Of a stretch of DNA of 64,000 nt, positions 37,982-48,413 are shown piece after piece (positions within the stretch are counted from its first letter, which is position 1; the number at the start of each line of letters is the position of its first letter). A program made the translations under genes and the position numbers. The notes beneath the pieces were generated by a model that saw only the letters and a list, made by a program, of their open reading frames with translations, searched no databases and was not told the origin of the DNA. Origin of the DNA: Paenibacillus sp. DMB20 (GTDB lineage: Bacteria; Bacillota; Bacilli; Paenibacillales; Paenibacillaceae); the NCBI RefSeq assembly GCF_000987955.1, contig NZ_LAZU01000032.1, forward strand, positions 286,455-350,454. The letters run 5' to 3'.

Positions 37982-39838
37982 TTAGCTGTCGCGGAGCTGT
38001 TCCAGTTCCAGGCGCAGCGCCCGGATTTCCCTCATCTGTCCCTCTTCTTCCGTAGCGTCGCCGGATATTCCAAGCAGAAGCTCCTGAATCCGGTATTCCA
38101 GCTCCATCCGCCGGTTCTCCTTCCCGCTGTCTCCCCGGATTACATGGGTGCGCGATGCCTGCTCTTCCTCCTCCTGTACGCTTCCTTCGAACCAGACCGG
38201 CTTCCCGTCCCCATTCAGCGTAAGCAGCCGGTTAGCGATCTTGCGGACGAGATACCTGTCGTGCGAAACAAGCGCGATCGCTCCCGGGTAGGATTGAAGC
38301 ACGTCTTCGATCACTTCCCTTGTGTCCACGTCCAGATAGTTGGTCGGTTCATCCAGAACGAGCAAATGGGCGCCGCTGAAATAGAGCTTCAGGAAGGCGG
38401 CTCTGCACTTTTCCCCCATGCTGAGATCCCCGATGGTTTTGAATACGTCATCCCTGCTGAACAAAAAGCAGCCCAGCAGCGTCCGTGCCCTGCTTTGCGT
38501 CATATCCGGCAGGCCGAGCAGGCTGTCAAGCAGGGTCGCACTCAGATTAAGACCTTCCAACTCCTGAGAGAAGTAGCCGATCTTCAGCGCCGGATGCCGA
38601 ATGATCCGCCCCTCTACGGGTTCCAGTTCTCCCAGCAGCAGCTTCAGCAGCGTCGTCTTGCCGCTGCCGTTCGGCCCCCGGACAGCCAGACGGTCACCTC
38701 TCGACAATTGGAAGCGCAGCTTGTCAAACAGAAGTCCGCTTCCGTATCCGAAGGAAACTTCTTCGACGCGGATCAGAGTCCGGGCGCCGAATTCCTCCGC
38801 CCCGAGCTTCATGTGCAGTTTCGGATCCTGCCGCGGTTTGCCCACGGCCTCCGCTTTCAGGCGTTCCAGCGCCTTCTGTTTGGCATGGTAGCGGGAAACA
38901 TTTTTCTTCGCCTTCGCTTTATAAAAGCTTGCCGTGATCTTGACCTCATTCTGTGCGGCGGCGGAATCATGCGCCTGATGAAACCATTCCTGGTAATTGC
39001 GGATCGATTCCTCAAGGGCTTTCCGTTCGAGCTCCTGCTTCCGGTGAAGAGCCTCATGCTCCCGCAGTTCCCTCTCCTTCTCCCTCCGGTAATCGGAATA
39101 GCCTCCCTTATAACGCTTTAGCCCTTCCGACGTCAGCTCGCAGACAGCGGTCGCCGTCCTATCGATAAACTCCCGGTCATGGGACACAAATAATACGGTA
39201 CCCTTATAGGAAGCGAGCCACTGTTCAAGCCAACGCAAACTTTCCCCGTCCAGATGGTTGGTCGGTTCATCCAGCAGCAGAAACTGCGGCTCCGAAACGA
39301 GAAGTGACGAAAGCATGGCCCTCGTTTTTTGCCCGCCGCTCAGTTGGTGAAAGGAAACCGGCCACAGCTCGGCTCCAAGGCCCAGCATCGTCATGGATTT
39401 TTCCACTTCCGTTTCCCACTGGAACCCGCCGAGCGTCTCATACTCGCCAAGCATGTGGCCGTACTTCTCCAGCACCTCCGGATTTTGCTCTGTCTCAACC
39501 GTTTCCATGAGGCGTTCGGCTTCGGCAAGCCCTTGCTTTAGCTTCCATAAATTTTCGCTGCTGCCGCGCCTTACGGCATCAAGAGCCGATAGATCGTCAT
39601 CATGCTGATCCTGCTGCTTCATCCATCCCCATTTGTGGCGCGGAAGGATCATTTCCAACCTGCCGGACGAAGGCTCCCTTACGCCCGTCAATATGGACAA
39701 GAGAGTGGATTTCCCGGAGCCGTTGCGTCCAAACAACGCCAGCCTTTCTCCTTCCGCTATCTCCAATTGAACATTTTCAAATAAAATATTTCCTTGCAGC
39801 TCGATGCTGAGATCTGTCGCTTTTAAAATCGTTGTCAT
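37982..39838 (-). CDS. ABC-F family ATPase (possible antibiotic ribosome-protection protein)
   Basis: A soluble tandem ABC protein of 618 residues without membrane domains. ABC1 has Walker A GRNGSGKSTLL, signature LSGGQKTRAML and Walker B LLLDEPTNHLD. A charged interdomain linker follows (KKNVSRYHAKQKALERLKAE). ABC2 has GPNGSGKTTLL, a degenerate signature LSMGEKCRAAF and VLDEPTNYLD. The C-terminus is a coiled coil (EEEGQMREIRALRLELEQL). ABC-F proteins remodel the ribosome; a subset confer resistance to lincosamides, streptogramins or pleuromutilins. The attenuator-like terminator 33 bases before its start codon, typical of inducible resistance ABC-Fs, hints at that subset. Drug specificity is not inferable. 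Confidence 0.85.
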   Translation of the reverse strand: MTTILKATDLSIELQGNILFENVQLEIAEGERLALFGRNGSGKSTLLSILTGVREPSSGRLEMILPRHKWGWMKQQDQHDDDLSALDAVRRGSSENLWKLKQGLAEAERLMETVETEQNPEVLEKYGHMLGEYETLGGFQWETEVEKSMTMLGLGAELWPVSFHQLSGGQKTRAMLSSLLVSEPQFLLLDEPTNHLDGESLRWLEQWLASYKGTVLFVSHDREFIDRTATAVCELTSEGLKRYKGGYSDYRREKERELREHEALHRKQELERKALEESIRNYQEWFHQAHDSAAAQNEVKITASFYKAKAKKNVSRYHAKQKALERLKAEAVGKPRQDPKLHMKLGAEEFGARTLIRVEEVSFGYGSGLLFDKLRFQLSRGDRLAVRGPNGSGKTTLLKLLLGELEPVEGRIIRHPALKIGYFSQELEGLNLSATLLDSLLGLPDMTQSRARTLLGCFLFSRDDVFKTIGDLSMGEKCRAAFLKLYFSGAHLLVLDEPTNYLDVDTREVIEDVLQSYPGAIALVSHDRYLVRKIANRLLTLNGDGKPVWFEGSVQEEEEQASRTHVIRGDSGKENRRMELEYRIQELLLGISGDATEEEGQMREIRALRLELEQLRDS

Positions 39839-40240: not shown

Positions 40241-41206
40241 TTACGGGAGCTTTACTCCCTTGCCAAGCTTAACCGCCTTGCGCCAGTAATGTCCAGCGAT
40301 CCCAATATCGAAAATAGCCAAACCCATCGGGTTAAAATAGACCGTGCCCGCTGCTTCCCTGCGGAAGAGGGCGCCGCGGCAAACCACATCGGCCAGCGTA
40401 CGGACGTCCGACGATTGCAAACCGTACCGGAGATGCAGCTGCTCCACATCGGTATTTTCCCGGCAAACTTCATTCCAATCGTCGACCACGATCGTATTGA
40501 TATGGGCAACGCTTTCGGGAATGTAATCGCGAAGGGAAACACCCAGCAGCAGCTTTCCCTCCTCCGGGGCCTCGTCAATGTACCGATTCGCCGAAACCGT
40601 ACAGGTAGCGATGACGTCGGCTTGACGGTATGCGGTGCGCCAATCATCCGTTATAACCGTAATGTCCCGCAATTCGGCGGGTACGGTTTCGGGATCAATT
40701 CCTCGAAGGTCATGCAAAATAACCTGCTCCAGCTTCCCGCCGAGAACCGCGGCGCACATATCCAAGTGAAGACGACCGATCGGCCCCCAGCCGATAATGC
40801 CCATTTTCAATCCAGGGGGCTGCCTGGCCTCAACATAAGCTTGAAGCATCACGCCGCTGACCGCCGCCGTCCGGAGTCCGCTCAGCATTCCGCTGTTCAG
40901 AAAGGCCAGCGGTTCTCCCGTCTCCGTATCGTTTAATATGACGGTGTTGTGCGCGCGCGGCAGTCCGTGGAGATGGTTTTGCGGAAAGCTGGCAATCCAT
41001 TTGATTCCGGCCAGGTCGAAGCTTCCTCCCACATAAGCCGGCATCGCAATGATCCGGTTCCCGGGGTCTCCGAATCTCAAATAGGGCTTAAGCGGAAACA
41101 CGCAGTCGCCCGCATCCTCGACCCGGATAACATCCTTTATGATACCGATCAAAACTTGCCAGTCGATTCCCAGTTCCTGGATATGGCTATCGTTCAGATA
41201 AAGCAT
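40241..41206 (-). CDS. sbnB: SbnB-like 2,3-diaminopropionate synthase (ornithine cyclodeaminase family)
   Basis: A 321-residue NAD-dependent enzyme of the ornithine cyclodeaminase / mu-crystallin family. KPYLRFGDPGNRIIAMPAYV, AGIKWIASFPQNHLHGLPRA, LNSGMLSGLRTAAVSGV and MGIIGWGPIGRLHLDM (Rossmann GxGxxG-like) match SbnB, which oxidatively cleaves N-(1-amino-1-carboxy-2-ethyl)-glutamate to L-2,3-diaminopropionate and 2-oxoglutarate in the staphyloferrin B pathway. ATG 41206 follows AAGGAGGGGG, which overlaps the stop codon of the SbnA-like gene, so translation is coupled. An adjacent SbnA homologue supports the assignment over ornithine cyclodeaminase. Confidence 0.88.
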   Translation of the reverse strand: MLYLNDSHIQELGIDWQVLIGIIKDVIRVEDAGDCVFPLKPYLRFGDPGNRIIAMPAYVGGSFDLAGIKWIASFPQNHLHGLPRAHNTVILNDTETGEPLAFLNSGMLSGLRTAAVSGVMLQAYVEARQPPGLKMGIIGWGPIGRLHLDMCAAVLGGKLEQVILHDLRGIDPETVPAELRDITVITDDWRTAYRQADVIATCTVSANRYIDEAPEEGKLLLGVSLRDYIPESVAHINTIVVDDWNEVCRENTDVEQLHLRYGLQSSDVRTLADVVCRGALFRREAAGTVYFNPMGLAIFDIGIAGHYWRKAVKLGKGVKLP

Positions 41207-41217
41207 GCTCCCCCTCC

Positions 41218-42186
41218 TTACGGCAAACGGGGATCGAAACCAAGCTCCCGCCGCACCCAATCATCGTTATATACGGTATCCATGTACCGTTCCCCCCTGT
41301 CGGGCAGGATCGCTGCGCATACGGCTCCTTTGGGAATGCGTGCTTTCATGCGAAGCATCGCTGAAATGACGCCGCCCGATGATGCGCCCGCCATAATGGA
41401 CTCTCTCCTTACAAGCAGACGGCAGCCTTCCACGCAATCCCGGTCGGACACATACAACACCTCATCCGCTACCTCCGGATGATACAGCCCCGGAACGATG
41501 CCCGCCCCTAGGCCCGGAAAGCGGCGGGAGCTTTTCTTTCCGCCGAAAATCACGCTTCCGGCAGCGTCGACGGCCACAATTTTGGTATGCTGACCTTTGG
41601 ACCTTATATAGTCCGAGCAGCCGCGAATCGTGCCGCAGGAGCTGACGCCGCAGAACAAATAATCGATGGGCCCCAGCTCATCGCAAATTTCCTTCATCGT
41701 CATCTCGGTGTGGGACAAACTGTTGTCCAGGTTCCCATACTGATTCGTCCAATAAGCATGCGGAATTTGGCGAACCAATTCCTTTACCCGCCGTATTCGC
41801 GCCGGCAAAAACTCGCCCGTTTCCTCGTCAGGCTCGGATACGAGATCGATTTCTCCTCCAAAGCCGCGGATGATGCTCTTATGCTGCTCGGTCGTTCGGG
41901 GGTCAACCACGCATATAAAACGCAGCCCCAGATAGCGGCACAACTGGGCCAGACTGATGGCCAGATTCCCTGAACTGGACTCTACTACGACGCTGCGCTC
42001 CGTAATATCCCCGCGGCGGATTGCTTCCTTCAGTAAATAAAGCGCAGGCCGGTCCTTCCCGCTTCCTCCGGGATTCATGCCCTCCAGCTTGGCATAAGCA
42101 TCAAACGGAGCATCTTGAAACAGCTGCGACAGGCGAATAAGCGGCGTGTCGCCGATGGTATCGACAATACCTCCCTCGAGCTTCAT
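41218..42186 (-). CDS. sbnA: SbnA-like PLP enzyme, N-(2-amino-2-carboxyethyl)-glutamate synthase
   Basis: A 322-residue cysteine-synthase-fold (fold type II) PLP enzyme. IGDTPLIRL, KLEGMNPGGSGKDRPALYLL with the Schiff-base lysine, VVESSSGNLAISLA (phosphate/asparagine loop) and CGVSSCGTIRG are standard. GRRFPGLGAGIVPGLYHP-like RFPGLGAGIVPGLYHPE is typical of the SbnA branch, which joins O-phosphoserine and glutamate in the first step of 2,3-diaminopropionate synthesis. Its ATG overlaps the stop codon of the upstream adenylate-forming enzyme gene (TAATG), and the SbnB-like gene follows with coupled translation. Confidence 0.88.
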   Translation of the reverse strand: MKLEGGIVDTIGDTPLIRLSQLFQDAPFDAYAKLEGMNPGGSGKDRPALYLLKEAIRRGDITERSVVVESSSGNLAISLAQLCRYLGLRFICVVDPRTTEQHKSIIRGFGGEIDLVSEPDEETGEFLPARIRRVKELVRQIPHAYWTNQYGNLDNSLSHTEMTMKEICDELGPIDYLFCGVSSCGTIRGCSDYIRSKGQHTKIVAVDAAGSVIFGGKKSSRRFPGLGAGIVPGLYHPEVADEVLYVSDRDCVEGCRLLVRRESIMAGASSGGVISAMLRMKARIPKGAVCAAILPDRGERYMDTVYNDDWVRRELGFDPRLP

Positions 42187-43451
42187 TACGATCCCTCATT
42201 TTTGTCATAGTAAATTTTCTTGTGCTTTACCGACCGGCGCTGTTCCTCATCTTGAAAGCTGCCGCCCGCCACCCGAATACGGCCGATGATTCCCGACCGG
42301 ATCATCGCCCCGATCTCCGGTATGCGTTCCTCCAAATCCTGCCGGATGGCTTCCAGCATTTCCGGCGTCACGGCGTTGTCCGCACGATTCAGCCCATCGT
42401 TATCGGTACCGTATACAAATACCTTTAGTCCCTCTCTATCCATATGGACGCGAACGCTTACCCGCGAGAGGTGCCGGTTCACGACATCCTCGATATCGTA
42501 AATGCTAATCTTCTCGCCATGCTTGAGGTCCGGCCCGATTCGTTTGACGATGCTCTGAAAACTCATCCGCTCCACCCCGTCTACGGTAATGGGGCGTAAA
42601 TCTCGAACCACGTCATACGTTACATAACGTATCGCAGGAAATGCCTCCCGTACCGTCGAAGTCAGAACAAGCACCTGTTCCTTCCCGGGAAGCGGTTCTA
42701 TCCCTTCGCCGAGATCTTCTGCCCCGACCCCTTCAGCACTCAACCCCTCGGCCAGCAAATAACGTCCGTGCTGCGGCGAATGATAGGCTATCGTACCCAT
42801 TTCAATGGAGCCGTACGTATCCGTAATCCGTTCCTCATCAATGCCAAGACGTTCGGCGGCACGCCGGATCCAACCGGCAGGGGCCATCTCCCCCACGAGA
42901 ATAACATGGCGGATGCCATATGCCTCGGGATGCTCGGAAGCAAGCAGTATACGCTCCAAAATTGACGGCATCGTGTAGAGCACCTCAGGCCGAAAGCTTT
43001 GCAATCGATCCAAATGCTGTTCGATCGGCAGCGTGTAGGGAATCGATTCAACCTCCATTCCCAGTTCCCTGAACACCTGGACGGCCGTCGCTTCCGCATG
43101 GCCCGTTCCCATATCCGCCAAGGCGGTTCGATAGCCGGACGTGCCTAAAACGGTACGGAAAACATTCAGCTTAATCCGCATATATTCCGCTTCATCGGCC
43201 TCGGAATAATATATGATTTTGCGTCTGCCCGAGCTGGTGCCGGACGTGCGGTATTTGTAAAGTCCTTCTGAGCCTTGAAGCGGATTATCGTCTGAATAAT
43301 AATGCTTCTCCAGAACGGATGAGGTGATCAGCGGCAGTTGTTCCAATCGATAAGATTCGTCTATCTGAAGAGCACCAAGCCTATGAACATACCAGGGACA
43401 GTACTTGCCAATCCGTTCAATAACCTCCTGAAGAATTGCAGACGAGATCAT
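42186..43451 (-). CDS. Phenylacetate-CoA-ligase-like adenylate-forming enzyme
   Basis: A 421-residue AMP-forming enzyme of the PaaK/CapK superfamily. YKYRTSGTSSGRRKIIYYSE is the AMP-binding P-loop motif (TSGTSSGRRK), ITDTYGSIEMGTIAYH is the second adenylate motif, and the C-terminal domain has YDIEDVVNRHLSRVSVRVHM. It is the first gene of a three-gene unit with sbnA- and sbnB-like genes, so it may activate 2,3-diaminopropionate or a partner carboxylate for conjugation. The real substrate and whether CoA is the acceptor are unknown. No NRPS or carrier-protein gene is visible in the window. Confidence 0.82.
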   Translation of the reverse strand: MISSAILQEVIERIGKYCPWYVHRLGALQIDESYRLEQLPLITSSVLEKHYYSDDNPLQGSEGLYKYRTSGTSSGRRKIIYYSEADEAEYMRIKLNVFRTVLGTSGYRTALADMGTGHAEATAVQVFRELGMEVESIPYTLPIEQHLDRLQSFRPEVLYTMPSILERILLASEHPEAYGIRHVILVGEMAPAGWIRRAAERLGIDEERITDTYGSIEMGTIAYHSPQHGRYLLAEGLSAEGVGAEDLGEGIEPLPGKEQVLVLTSTVREAFPAIRYVTYDVVRDLRPITVDGVERMSFQSIVKRIGPDLKHGEKISIYDIEDVVNRHLSRVSVRVHMDREGLKVFVYGTDNDGLNRADNAVTPEMLEAIRQDLEERIPEIGAMIRSGIIGRIRVAGGSFQDEEQRRSVKHKKIYYDKNEGS

Positions 43452-43700
43452 AAAACGGGCCTCCTCTCAGTTGGACCTAATGTGCCTGTTCCTTCAATCC
43501 ACTTTATGCAATGCGTGCTTGGTCATGTTCTTGGCCCCACCTTCAAAACGTAGGGCTGCCCGGGATAAAACGTCAATGCAGGCCTATTATTGCGGAAGGA
43601 TCCGCACAGCATAGGCGGCTTAACCACACCCTGCCGTTCCTTTGGCCATATAATAGATTGCTAAGCTACCAGCCCATTCTTGAAAGGAAGGACGAGAGAC

Positions 43701-44486
43701 ATGGCAAAAAAGCCTCCAAGAAGCAAAATCCTGAAAACAAAAATCATGGCCGCCAGCCCAAAGCTGACGGAACATATTCCTCTCACCCGACGGTTGAACC
43801 GTCAACTTTTGTCTCGCATGCTCAATCAATATGGCATGGTCTATGTAAAGCCCGATGAAGGCGCTCAGGGAAAGGGCGTTATCCGGGTAGAGAAAACAAA
43901 ACAAGGCTACCGTTACCAACACGGTATGAATGTACCCGCCTTCGCCGACTTCGGATCGATGTACGCTTCCCTCCGCAGACACATTCGCCATAAGCGGTAT
44001 CTGGTTCAAAAAGGCGTTCATCTGCTCAGGTACAACGGGCGTCCATTCGATTTTCGCGTCATGATTCAGCGCAATCCGAAAAGGCAGTGGGAGTGTACCG
44101 GTACGTTCGGACGCCTGGCCCACCCCCGCAAAGCCGTTACGAACGGAAGCCAAGGGGGCTCGATCTACGAGCCTTCCGTCCTGCTCGCACCCCATGCCGC
44201 CACCGGAGAGGTTTCGACTGTGCGGCGAGGCATGAATAAACTCGCCCATTGGACTGCCGCCAGATTAAGCCGGACTTTTCCTCAATTGAACGAGCTCGGT
44301 TTGGATATCGGCTTGGACCGGAGGCTCAAACCATGGATTTTGGAGGTCAACTTTTATCCCGATCCATGTCCGTTTACCCTGCTGCCGAATCCAAGGGCCA
44401 TTCGCACCATCGTGGCCTACGGCAAAGCTTACGGAAGACGGTATCGTCTAAAATGCACCAAGGCGAAGAGAGGCTCCCTCAGGTAA
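43701..44486 (+). CDS. YheC/YheD-family ATP-grasp protein
   Basis: A 261-residue ATP-grasp protein of the spore-coat-associated YheC/D group. MVYVKPDEGAQGKGVIRVEK is the ATP-binding glycine loop, YLVQKGVHLLRYNGRPFDFR has the conserved catalytic arginine region, and DIGLDRRLKPWILEVNFYPD carries the C-terminal metal-binding ExN. ATG 43701 has AAGGAAGG upstream. It is divergent from the diaminopropionate cluster with about 250 bp between starts. Family function in spores is known only from coat association, so a ligase reaction is inferred from the fold. Confidence 0.85.
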   Translation: MAKKPPRSKILKTKIMAASPKLTEHIPLTRRLNRQLLSRMLNQYGMVYVKPDEGAQGKGVIRVEKTKQGYRYQHGMNVPAFADFGSMYASLRRHIRHKRYLVQKGVHLLRYNGRPFDFRVMIQRNPKRQWECTGTFGRLAHPRKAVTNGSQGGSIYEPSVLLAPHAATGEVSTVRRGMNKLAHWTAARLSRTFPQLNELGLDIGLDRRLKPWILEVNFYPDPCPFTLLPNPRAIRTIVAYGKAYGRRYRLKCTKAKRGSLR

Positions 44487-47453: not shown

Positions 47454-48413
47454 TTATTTCTTATTGAATGATACTTCCGGCGTGGTCAGCTTGTCATAAA
47501 AATCAACGGCTTTGTCCTTATCCTCCGAGGCGCGCAGCGCCATCGCGGAACGAGGATGCTCATCCAGGGTTCCCGTGATCATATATGGAATGAGGTAGCC
47601 CCATTCTTCTTTTTCACGCAGCGGGATCATAAAACGTTCAATAATGTCCAGTACGGGACGAAGCTCGTATTTTGTGCCTTTCAAATGGGTAACCAGCAAT
47701 TCCGTCGGACAGTTCCCGGCAGCGCGTCCCATCCCGTAAACGGAGGCATCCAGCAGTTCTACGCCATTCTCGGCAGCCACCAGCGTATTCGAAAATGCCA
47801 GCTGCATGTTGTTATGCGTATGGACGCCAAGACGCTTGTTCGGTAGGTGCGTTTTGAATTTATCGACCAGGTAGAGGATGTCTTTATGATCCAAACTTCC
47901 GTAGGAATCCACGATATACACCACGTCGACGACGCTCTCCTTGATCATCTCGAACGCCTCGAGCAGCTCGTGCTCCATCACGTTGGACAAAGCCATAATA
48001 TTGATCGTCGTCTCGTACCCACGGTTATGGAAGGTTTGAACAAGCTCCAACGCTTTATCTACATCCTTGATATAGCAGGCAACGCGGATCAAGTCCAACA
48101 AACTTTCCTCGCGCGGCAAAATGTCTTCTTCATCGACGCGGCCGATATCGACAAGGGCCGACAGTTTGGTTTTTCCTTTTTGCGGAATGACTTCGCGCAG
48201 GAAGTCGTCGTTCAGGAAGCGCCATGGACCCGCCTGGTCTGCCCCTTTCAGCAGTTTGGGGGAGTTTTTATAGCCGATTTCCATATAGTCCACGCCCGCC
48301 TCATTCAGGCCGGCATATAAATTCTGCACAAACTCCACGCTAAAATCCCAATTGTTGACTAACCCGCCGTCGCGGATCGTGCAATCCACGATTTTGGTTC
48401 GACTGCTTTTCAT
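47454..48413 (-). CDS. HMGL-like aldolase family protein
   Basis: A 319-residue TIM-barrel enzyme of the HMG-CoA-lyase/isopropylmalate-synthase-like superfamily. It begins KIVDCTIRDGGLVNNWDFS, whose DxTxRDGG motif contributes the metal-binding aspartate and catalytic arginine. GVHTHNNMQLAFSNTL supplies the HxH metal ligands, and VDSYGSLDH and GMGRAAGNCPTE are further conserved blocks. It lacks the C-terminal LeuA regulatory domain, so it is not leuA. Related proteins act as 4-hydroxy-2-oxovalerate-type aldolases; the substrate here is unknown. It is monocistronic. Confidence 0.85.
   Translation of the reverse strand: MKSSRTKIVDCTIRDGGLVNNWDFSVEFVQNLYAGLNEAGVDYMEIGYKNSPKLLKGADQAGPWRFLNDDFLREVIPQKGKTKLSALVDIGRVDEEDILPREESLLDLIRVACYIKDVDKALELVQTFHNRGYETTINIMALSNVMEHELLEAFEMIKESVVDVVYIVDSYGSLDHKDILYLVDKFKTHLPNKRLGVHTHNNMQLAFSNTLVAAENGVELLDASVYGMGRAAGNCPTELLVTHLKGTKYELRPVLDIIERFMIPLREKEEWGYLIPYMITGTLDEHPRSAMALRASEDKDKAVDFYDKLTTPEVSFNKK

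Follow-up and report, generated by a model that had tools for sequence, protein, structure and literature searches.

What does a bacterium make with the genes for L-2,3-diaminopropionate (DAP) when they stand beside an adenylate-forming enzyme and no nonribosomal peptide synthetase (NRPS)? This question is raised by a locus of Paenibacillus sp. DMB20 (contig NZ_LAZU01000032.1, positions 286,455 to 350,454), a stretch of 64,000 nucleotides that was analysed as a whole and is referred to here as the window. An initial annotation of the window described a trio of an adenylate-forming enzyme, an SbnA-like protein and an SbnB-like protein, and suggested a small pathway to a DAP conjugate that was perhaps spore-related, with a divergent ATP-grasp gene as a possible partner. 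We consider it probable that four genes constitute a pathway timed by the sigma factor sigma-K, in which DAP is made, acylated and joined to a second partner by the ATP-grasp enzyme. The gene content, the conservation, the kinship of the ligase with DdaG and the promoter class are supported by sequence analysis; what we infer is each single reaction, which acid and which acceptor take part, and what the cassette is for.

The three open reading frames (ORFs) of the trio lie on the minus strand and are transcribed in the order ligase, SbnA, SbnB. The DdaG-like adenylate-forming amide ligase, a proposed acyl-DAP synthetase, occupies 42186-43451 (421 amino acids); the SbnA-type pyridoxal phosphate (PLP) enzyme for the first step of DAP synthesis occupies 41218-42186 (322 amino acids); and the SbnB-type dehydrogenase for the second step occupies 40241-41206 (321 amino acids). 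The trio had been described as three overlapping genes, which is correct for the ligase and SbnA, whose genes share 1 nt. The SbnB gene does not overlap; its likely start, the ATG at 41206, was aligned with the start of the solved SbnB and lies 11 nt past the SbnA stop. The YheC/D-type ATP-grasp ligase gene (43701-44486, plus strand, 261 amino acids) diverges from the ligase gene at a distance of 249 bases.

Relatives of the ligase were sought across the genome collection, and the best 80 of 169 were kept; all counts out of 80 refer to these loci. They belong to Paenibacillus and Cohnella, with one other Paenibacillaceae metagenome-assembled genome and one Croceifilum. According to tblastn, SbnA is adjacent to the ligase in 79 of the 80 loci and SbnB in 75, and the divergent ATP-grasp gene, its steadiest companion, adjoins the ligase in 79, the exception (L125) being at a contig edge. 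Among the 31 loci of a second, overlapping set, the window's own duplicate being one of them, the ATP-grasp gene diverges from the ligase every time; the suggested partnership has thus gained weight. In this second set, L151 is cut short by the end of its contig; L150 and L152, which belong to families farther removed, have no SbnA or SbnB adjacent to the ligase. In seven of the 80 loci the ligase and SbnA form a single frame of 732-740 amino acids. The cassette remains intact while the flanking genes vary, and the joint recurrence of the four genes in Paenibacillus and Cohnella is far beyond chance.

No fifth constant gene was found among the called ORFs of at least 60 amino acids in the 80 loci; the most frequent further neighbour is an ABC-type protein cluster, near 27 loci. 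A DdaD-like adenylation match (E-value of at most 1e-8) occurred in none of the 80 loci, with flanks of up to 8 kb on each side that were shorter where a contig ended, and not one called flanking ORF had two or more NRPS core motifs; these searches were made without a positive control for their sensitivity. Within the scope of these searches, the statement of the initial annotation that no NRPS is present holds, and the proposal of a DAP conjugate formed without one appears stronger than before. As candidate NRPS neighbours, three long ORFs (of 35 with at least 700 amino acids) were scanned and rejected, being S-layer/glycosidase-type, SMC-like and S-layer-type. The locus L149 (genome G195) is rearranged, with the ATP-grasp, SbnA and SbnB genes in one row and the ligase divergent. 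SbnB is fragmented into at least two matches or frames in L032 (G010), L043 (G008) and L045 (G034), as is the ATP-grasp gene in L045 and SbnA in L033 (G030); these split genes possibly represent frameshifts or recent decay. In G010, the sole SbnB match at an E-value of at most 1e-60 sits elsewhere in the genome.

The initial annotation called the ligase PaaK-like, which holds for its fold and overlooks its closest characterised relative, DdaG of dapdiamide synthesis. The top NCBIfam match of the ligase is NF041596, DdaG (fumarate--DAP ligase), with 256 bits and an E-value of 5e-76, and the PaaK family profile scores 25 bits. Pantoea DdaG is 35-36% identical to the ligase across 92% of the ligase. 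When 81 members of the family were aligned, with fused ligases trimmed at 405 residues, 91 columns were near-invariant; Pantoea DdaG agrees at 68 of these columns and four PaaK-like proteins of relatives agree at 32-38; furthermore, 32 of the 91 columns are common to the ligase family and DdaG and occur in none of the four PaaK-like proteins. A tree separates 16 ligase-family rows and DdaG from the four PaaK-like rows with support of 100/100. The ligase thus carries signature residues of a wider DdaG-type clade and groups apart from PaaK-like enzymes. The structure model of the ligase (mean pLDDT, the predicted local distance difference test score, 83.8) has PaaK1 and PaaK-family enzymes as its closest solved structures in Foldseek, and the list also includes NatL2, AjiA1 and ClxA, PaaK-family enzymes known to form amides or benzoxazoles. 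As judged from these comparisons, the ligase has a PaaK-like fold and is closer kin to DdaG. A reading of the enzyme as a coenzyme A (CoA) ligase was rejected in view of the column comparison.

In Staphylococcus aureus, SbnA and SbnB convert O-phosphoserine and glutamate to L-2,3-diaminopropionate. The SbnA of the cassette scores 429 bits with TIGR03945, above the curated cut-off of 350, and 97% or more of 80 rows have K44 (the PLP lysine), Y150 and S182. Y150 and S182 correspond to the known positions Y152 and S185 of the S. aureus enzyme, which presumably have a functional role. For SbnB, K69, R84 and D300, whose roles are likewise presumed, are present in 97% or more of 76 rows. The initial annotation had named two outcomes as contrary to its proposal, and neither occurred: no NRPS was detected beside the trio in the searched flanks of the 80 loci, and the key residues of SbnA and SbnB are kept.

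The ligase was matched in 29 of 60 relatives, strongly in 25, and SbnB (E-value of at most 1e-60) was present in 24 of these 25 vs 4 of the other 35; the lone miss is G034, in which SbnB is split into two frames. Of 398 genomes sampled across the class, 11 have the ligase, and SbnB is found in 10 of the 11 vs 48 of the 387 others. This co-occurrence is partly a restatement of physical linkage. The spoIVA gene is present in all 11 ligase-bearing genomes vs 266 of the 398 overall, which is consistent with spore-formers, weakly by itself. Where SbnB is clearly not beside the ligase, another SbnB is encoded elsewhere in seven of eight genomes (L072, L105, L108, L112, L133, G353 and G447, with none in G206), some of which may be the same species; G438, whose ligase is at a contig edge, was excluded from this count. 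L163-L166, L168, L250 and L251 contain other SbnA-SbnB pairs with no ligase within a stretch of about 4 kb and no sigma-K-type site upstream.

The ATP-grasp protein belongs to the YheC/D family, with 190.7 bits for Pfam PF14398 and a gathering score of 26.8, and represents a short form of 253-296 amino acids in the 79 loci. In a tree of 29 of the 79 cassette genes together with the window's gene, the cassette ATP-grasps fall together with moderate support (89/84), and the other YheC/D copies tested lie outside their group. The tree needs three label changes, two of which concern L185, the duplicate of the window's own gene, and L133_x2, a long-branch second copy that adjoins the Croceifilum ligase. 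The structure model (pLDDT 93.2) retrieved tubulin-tyrosine/glutamyl ligases and LysX/ArgX at a TM score of about 0.5; this modelled resemblance to enzymes that attach amino acids to proteins is suggestive only. Behind the ligase of L133 (Croceifilum) and of L152 (family f27), the same strand carries another YheC/D-type gene; SbnA and SbnB are not adjacent at these loci, and each genome has another SbnA-SbnB pair elsewhere. In the window's genome there are 17 YheC/D-family matches, part of which are duplicates through redundant contigs, and five YheC/D-type ATP-grasp matches stand in tandem about 17-23 kb ahead of the window (G000:C51:263732-269810).

When would such a cassette be expressed? 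Sigma-K acts in the late mother cell. The promoter patterns were written with the consensus letters of the sigma factors, and a sigma-K-like pattern, AC-N15-18-CATAnnnT, was scanned in the region between the ligase and ATP-grasp genes. The promoter spacing is given in a figure legend of PMC517825. In the window, there is one sigma-K-type site per side: for ligase-sbnA-sbnB at 43500-43531 on the minus strand (-35 AC at 43527-43528, -10 CATAAAGT at 43501-43508), and for the ATP-grasp gene at 43625-43656 on the plus strand (-35 AC at 43628-43629, -10 CATATAATA at 43647-43655). The 79 loci and the window provide 80 regions, and the removal of three of at least 420 bp leaves 77. On the ligase side, the pattern is present in 68 of the 77 regions, vs a mean of 3.1 and a maximum of 9 in dinucleotide shuffles; on the ATP-grasp side it is present in 22 (shuffles 3.1, maximum 8). 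Control upstream regions of the same loci, derived from a simple ORF caller, have it in 19 of 331 cases. In the distant loci L133 and L149-L152, the pattern occurs on the ATP-grasp side only and starts 75-77 bases from the aligned start.

In Bacillus subtilis, dpaA is controlled by sigma-K and spoIVA by sigma-E, and both genes served as calibration. Among 30 dpaA loci in relatives, 26 had the sigma-K pattern and one the sigma-E pattern; among 30 spoIVA loci, the numbers were 10 and 27. At the cassette, a sigma-E-like pattern was found in 0 and 1 of the 77 regions (ligase and ATP-grasp sides), and sigma-A-like sites were found in 3 and 2, which is rarer than the single-base shuffle means of 7.8 and 6.3; control by sigma-E or by sigma-A was rejected on these counts. 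A sigma-K consensus thus lies upstream, is kept in relatives and is distinct from that of sigma-E. These patterns suggest that both cassette promoters look like sigma-K promoters of the late mother cell, and the passing suggestion of a spore-related role has been strengthened by their apparent presence on both sides.

Several observations weigh against this interpretation. The loci share descent, and their counts are not independent. The 256 bits of the ligase are far under the DdaG equivalog cut-off of 700 bits (NF041596), and 23 of the ligase family's 91 invariant columns are different in DdaG; because of both, the acid may differ from that of DdaG. The ligase tree was flagged with a long-branch warning, and the position of DdaG within the group is unsure. 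The SbnB score of 303 bits is slightly under the TIGR03944 cut-off of 326.9, which is reached in just five of the 60 relatives' genomes. With regard to timing, the ATP-grasp-side pattern occurs in just 22 regions, and 14 further loci (of the 31) had the sigma-K pattern in eight cases on the ligase side and in six on the ATP-grasp side, with neither side positive in L046. As to a sigma-K timing of SbnB supplied in trans, none of the seven distant sbnA-sbnB pairs scanned had the pattern within 300 bp upstream, the two lone SbnB genes L167 and L253 being outside that scan.

According to the pathway that we propose, sigma-K would switch on the four-gene cassette in the late mother cell, and SbnA and SbnB would produce L-2,3-diaminopropionate from O-phosphoserine and glutamate. 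The DdaG-like ligase would then adenylate a small carboxylic acid and link it to DAP through an amide; the likeliest acid is a C4 dicarboxylate, for example fumarate. The YheC/D-type ATP-grasp enzyme would activate a carboxylate, either on the acyl-DAP or on its partner, and form a second amide bond. The acceptor may be a spore-coat protein or peptide, which we slightly prefer, or a free amino acid, which would yield a dapdiamide-like pseudopeptide freed at mother-cell lysis. Because the ATP-grasp model resembles amino-acid-adding enzymes (tubulin ligases, LysX/ArgX), there is a slight tilt to the spore-bound product, and the free pseudopeptide released by lysis is nearly as likely. In its fully specified form, a DAP-based covalent modification of the spore, in which a tubulin-ligase-like ATP-grasp enzyme under sigma-K places acyl-DAP on coat proteins, is less likely than not; if it is true, the double bond of a fumaroyl-DAP would perhaps react with coat thiols to give a cross-link.

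The free product can be compared with a known system. In dapdiamide synthesis, DdaG and the ATP-grasp enzyme DdaF form the two amide bonds, according to PMC12568646. The Pantoea agglomerans dapdiamide cluster resembles the cassette in its SbnA/SbnB-type DAP synthesis, its DdaG-type ligase and its ATP-grasp enzyme, with stand-alone ligases making the amides. A sporulation-phase pseudopeptide of the same logic (acyl-DAP-amino acid), possibly an antimetabolite, with the ATP-grasp enzyme in the role of DdaF, is therefore a tentative possibility, and release by lysis would agree with the finding that no exporter is conserved alongside the cassette among the called gene clusters of the 80 loci. However, the top Pfam match of DdaF is a different ATP-grasp family (PF13535), whereas the cassette enzyme is of the PF14398 type. 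The Pantoea cluster also has dioxygenase, NRPS and amidotransferase genes, whereas no constant dioxygenase, NRPS, amidotransferase, siderophore synthetase or transporter gene was found beside the four genes in the 80 loci, and a set of DdaF, DdaC, DdaD and DdaH counterparts is not found there. In addition, unlike the Pantoea cluster, the cassette has sigma-K-type promoters and is recurrent in Paenibacillaceae.

DAP amides are able to bind metals. A small siderophore-like binder with which the sporulating cell would load or guard metal would fit SbnA and SbnB, which act as the DAP synthase in the staphyloferrin B sbn operon according to PMC3179956. We nevertheless regard this reading as improbable, since there is no constant neighbour past the four genes and hence, unlike in the sbn operon, no constant siderophore synthetase or transporter gene, and since the promoters appear to be of the sigma-K type, with housekeeping-type sites rarer than in shuffles; no search aimed at iron boxes was made. 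It is more improbable still that the ligase is a true PaaK-type acyl-CoA ligase, as the solved structures closest to it would suggest, and that the four genes are together only through ancestral gene order, given the low column agreement of the PaaK-like proteins, the amide and benzoxazole formers in the Foldseek list, the cohesion of the cassette despite changing flanks, and the ligase-SbnA fusions.

The proposed four-gene pathway also bears on the YheC/D family. B. subtilis YheC and YheD share PF14398 and a spore context with the cassette enzyme, and B. subtilis is the only control genome with a match to this family; the cassette enzyme differs from them as a short form with its own tree group. 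The yheC and yheD genes are under sigma-E and SpoIIID according to PMC517825, whereas the cassette gene appears to be of the sigma-K type. PMC7911427 describes YheD, which coats the B. subtilis spore, as a protein of unknown function. The pairing of a YheC/D-type ATP-grasp enzyme with a pathway that would make and acylate DAP leads to a concrete substrate hypothesis for the family, and for Paenibacillus and Cohnella it predicts either a metabolite of the spore phase or a modification of the coat; if true, this would amount to spore chemistry of a new kind. Among the titles listed in the open-licence PMC literature, which leaves most subscription papers outside the search, we found no published description of the cassette or of DAP-based spore-surface chemistry. 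In Table 4 of PMC3179956, Paenibacillus sp. JDR-2 is entered with an sbnA/sbnB pair whose product is given as 'Unknown' and which may be the same cassette; the ligase, the ATP-grasp partner and sporulation are all unmentioned in the excerpt of that paper.

In the window's assembly (G000), the four cassette genes occur in two copies that are 100% identical, on contigs C9 and C51 (L031, L001, L030). The contamination estimate of the assembly is 9.3, and the twofold cassette is probably assembly redundancy. The gene at 37982-39838 adjoins the cassette and encodes a ribosomal-protection-like ABC-F protein (NF000355, 479 bits); it is likewise present at the cassette in a few of the closest relatives. 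Farther away, an HMGL-like aldolase at 47454-48413 resembles 4-hydroxy-2-oxovalerate aldolase with a score under the family cut-off and is 92-95% identical in near relatives.

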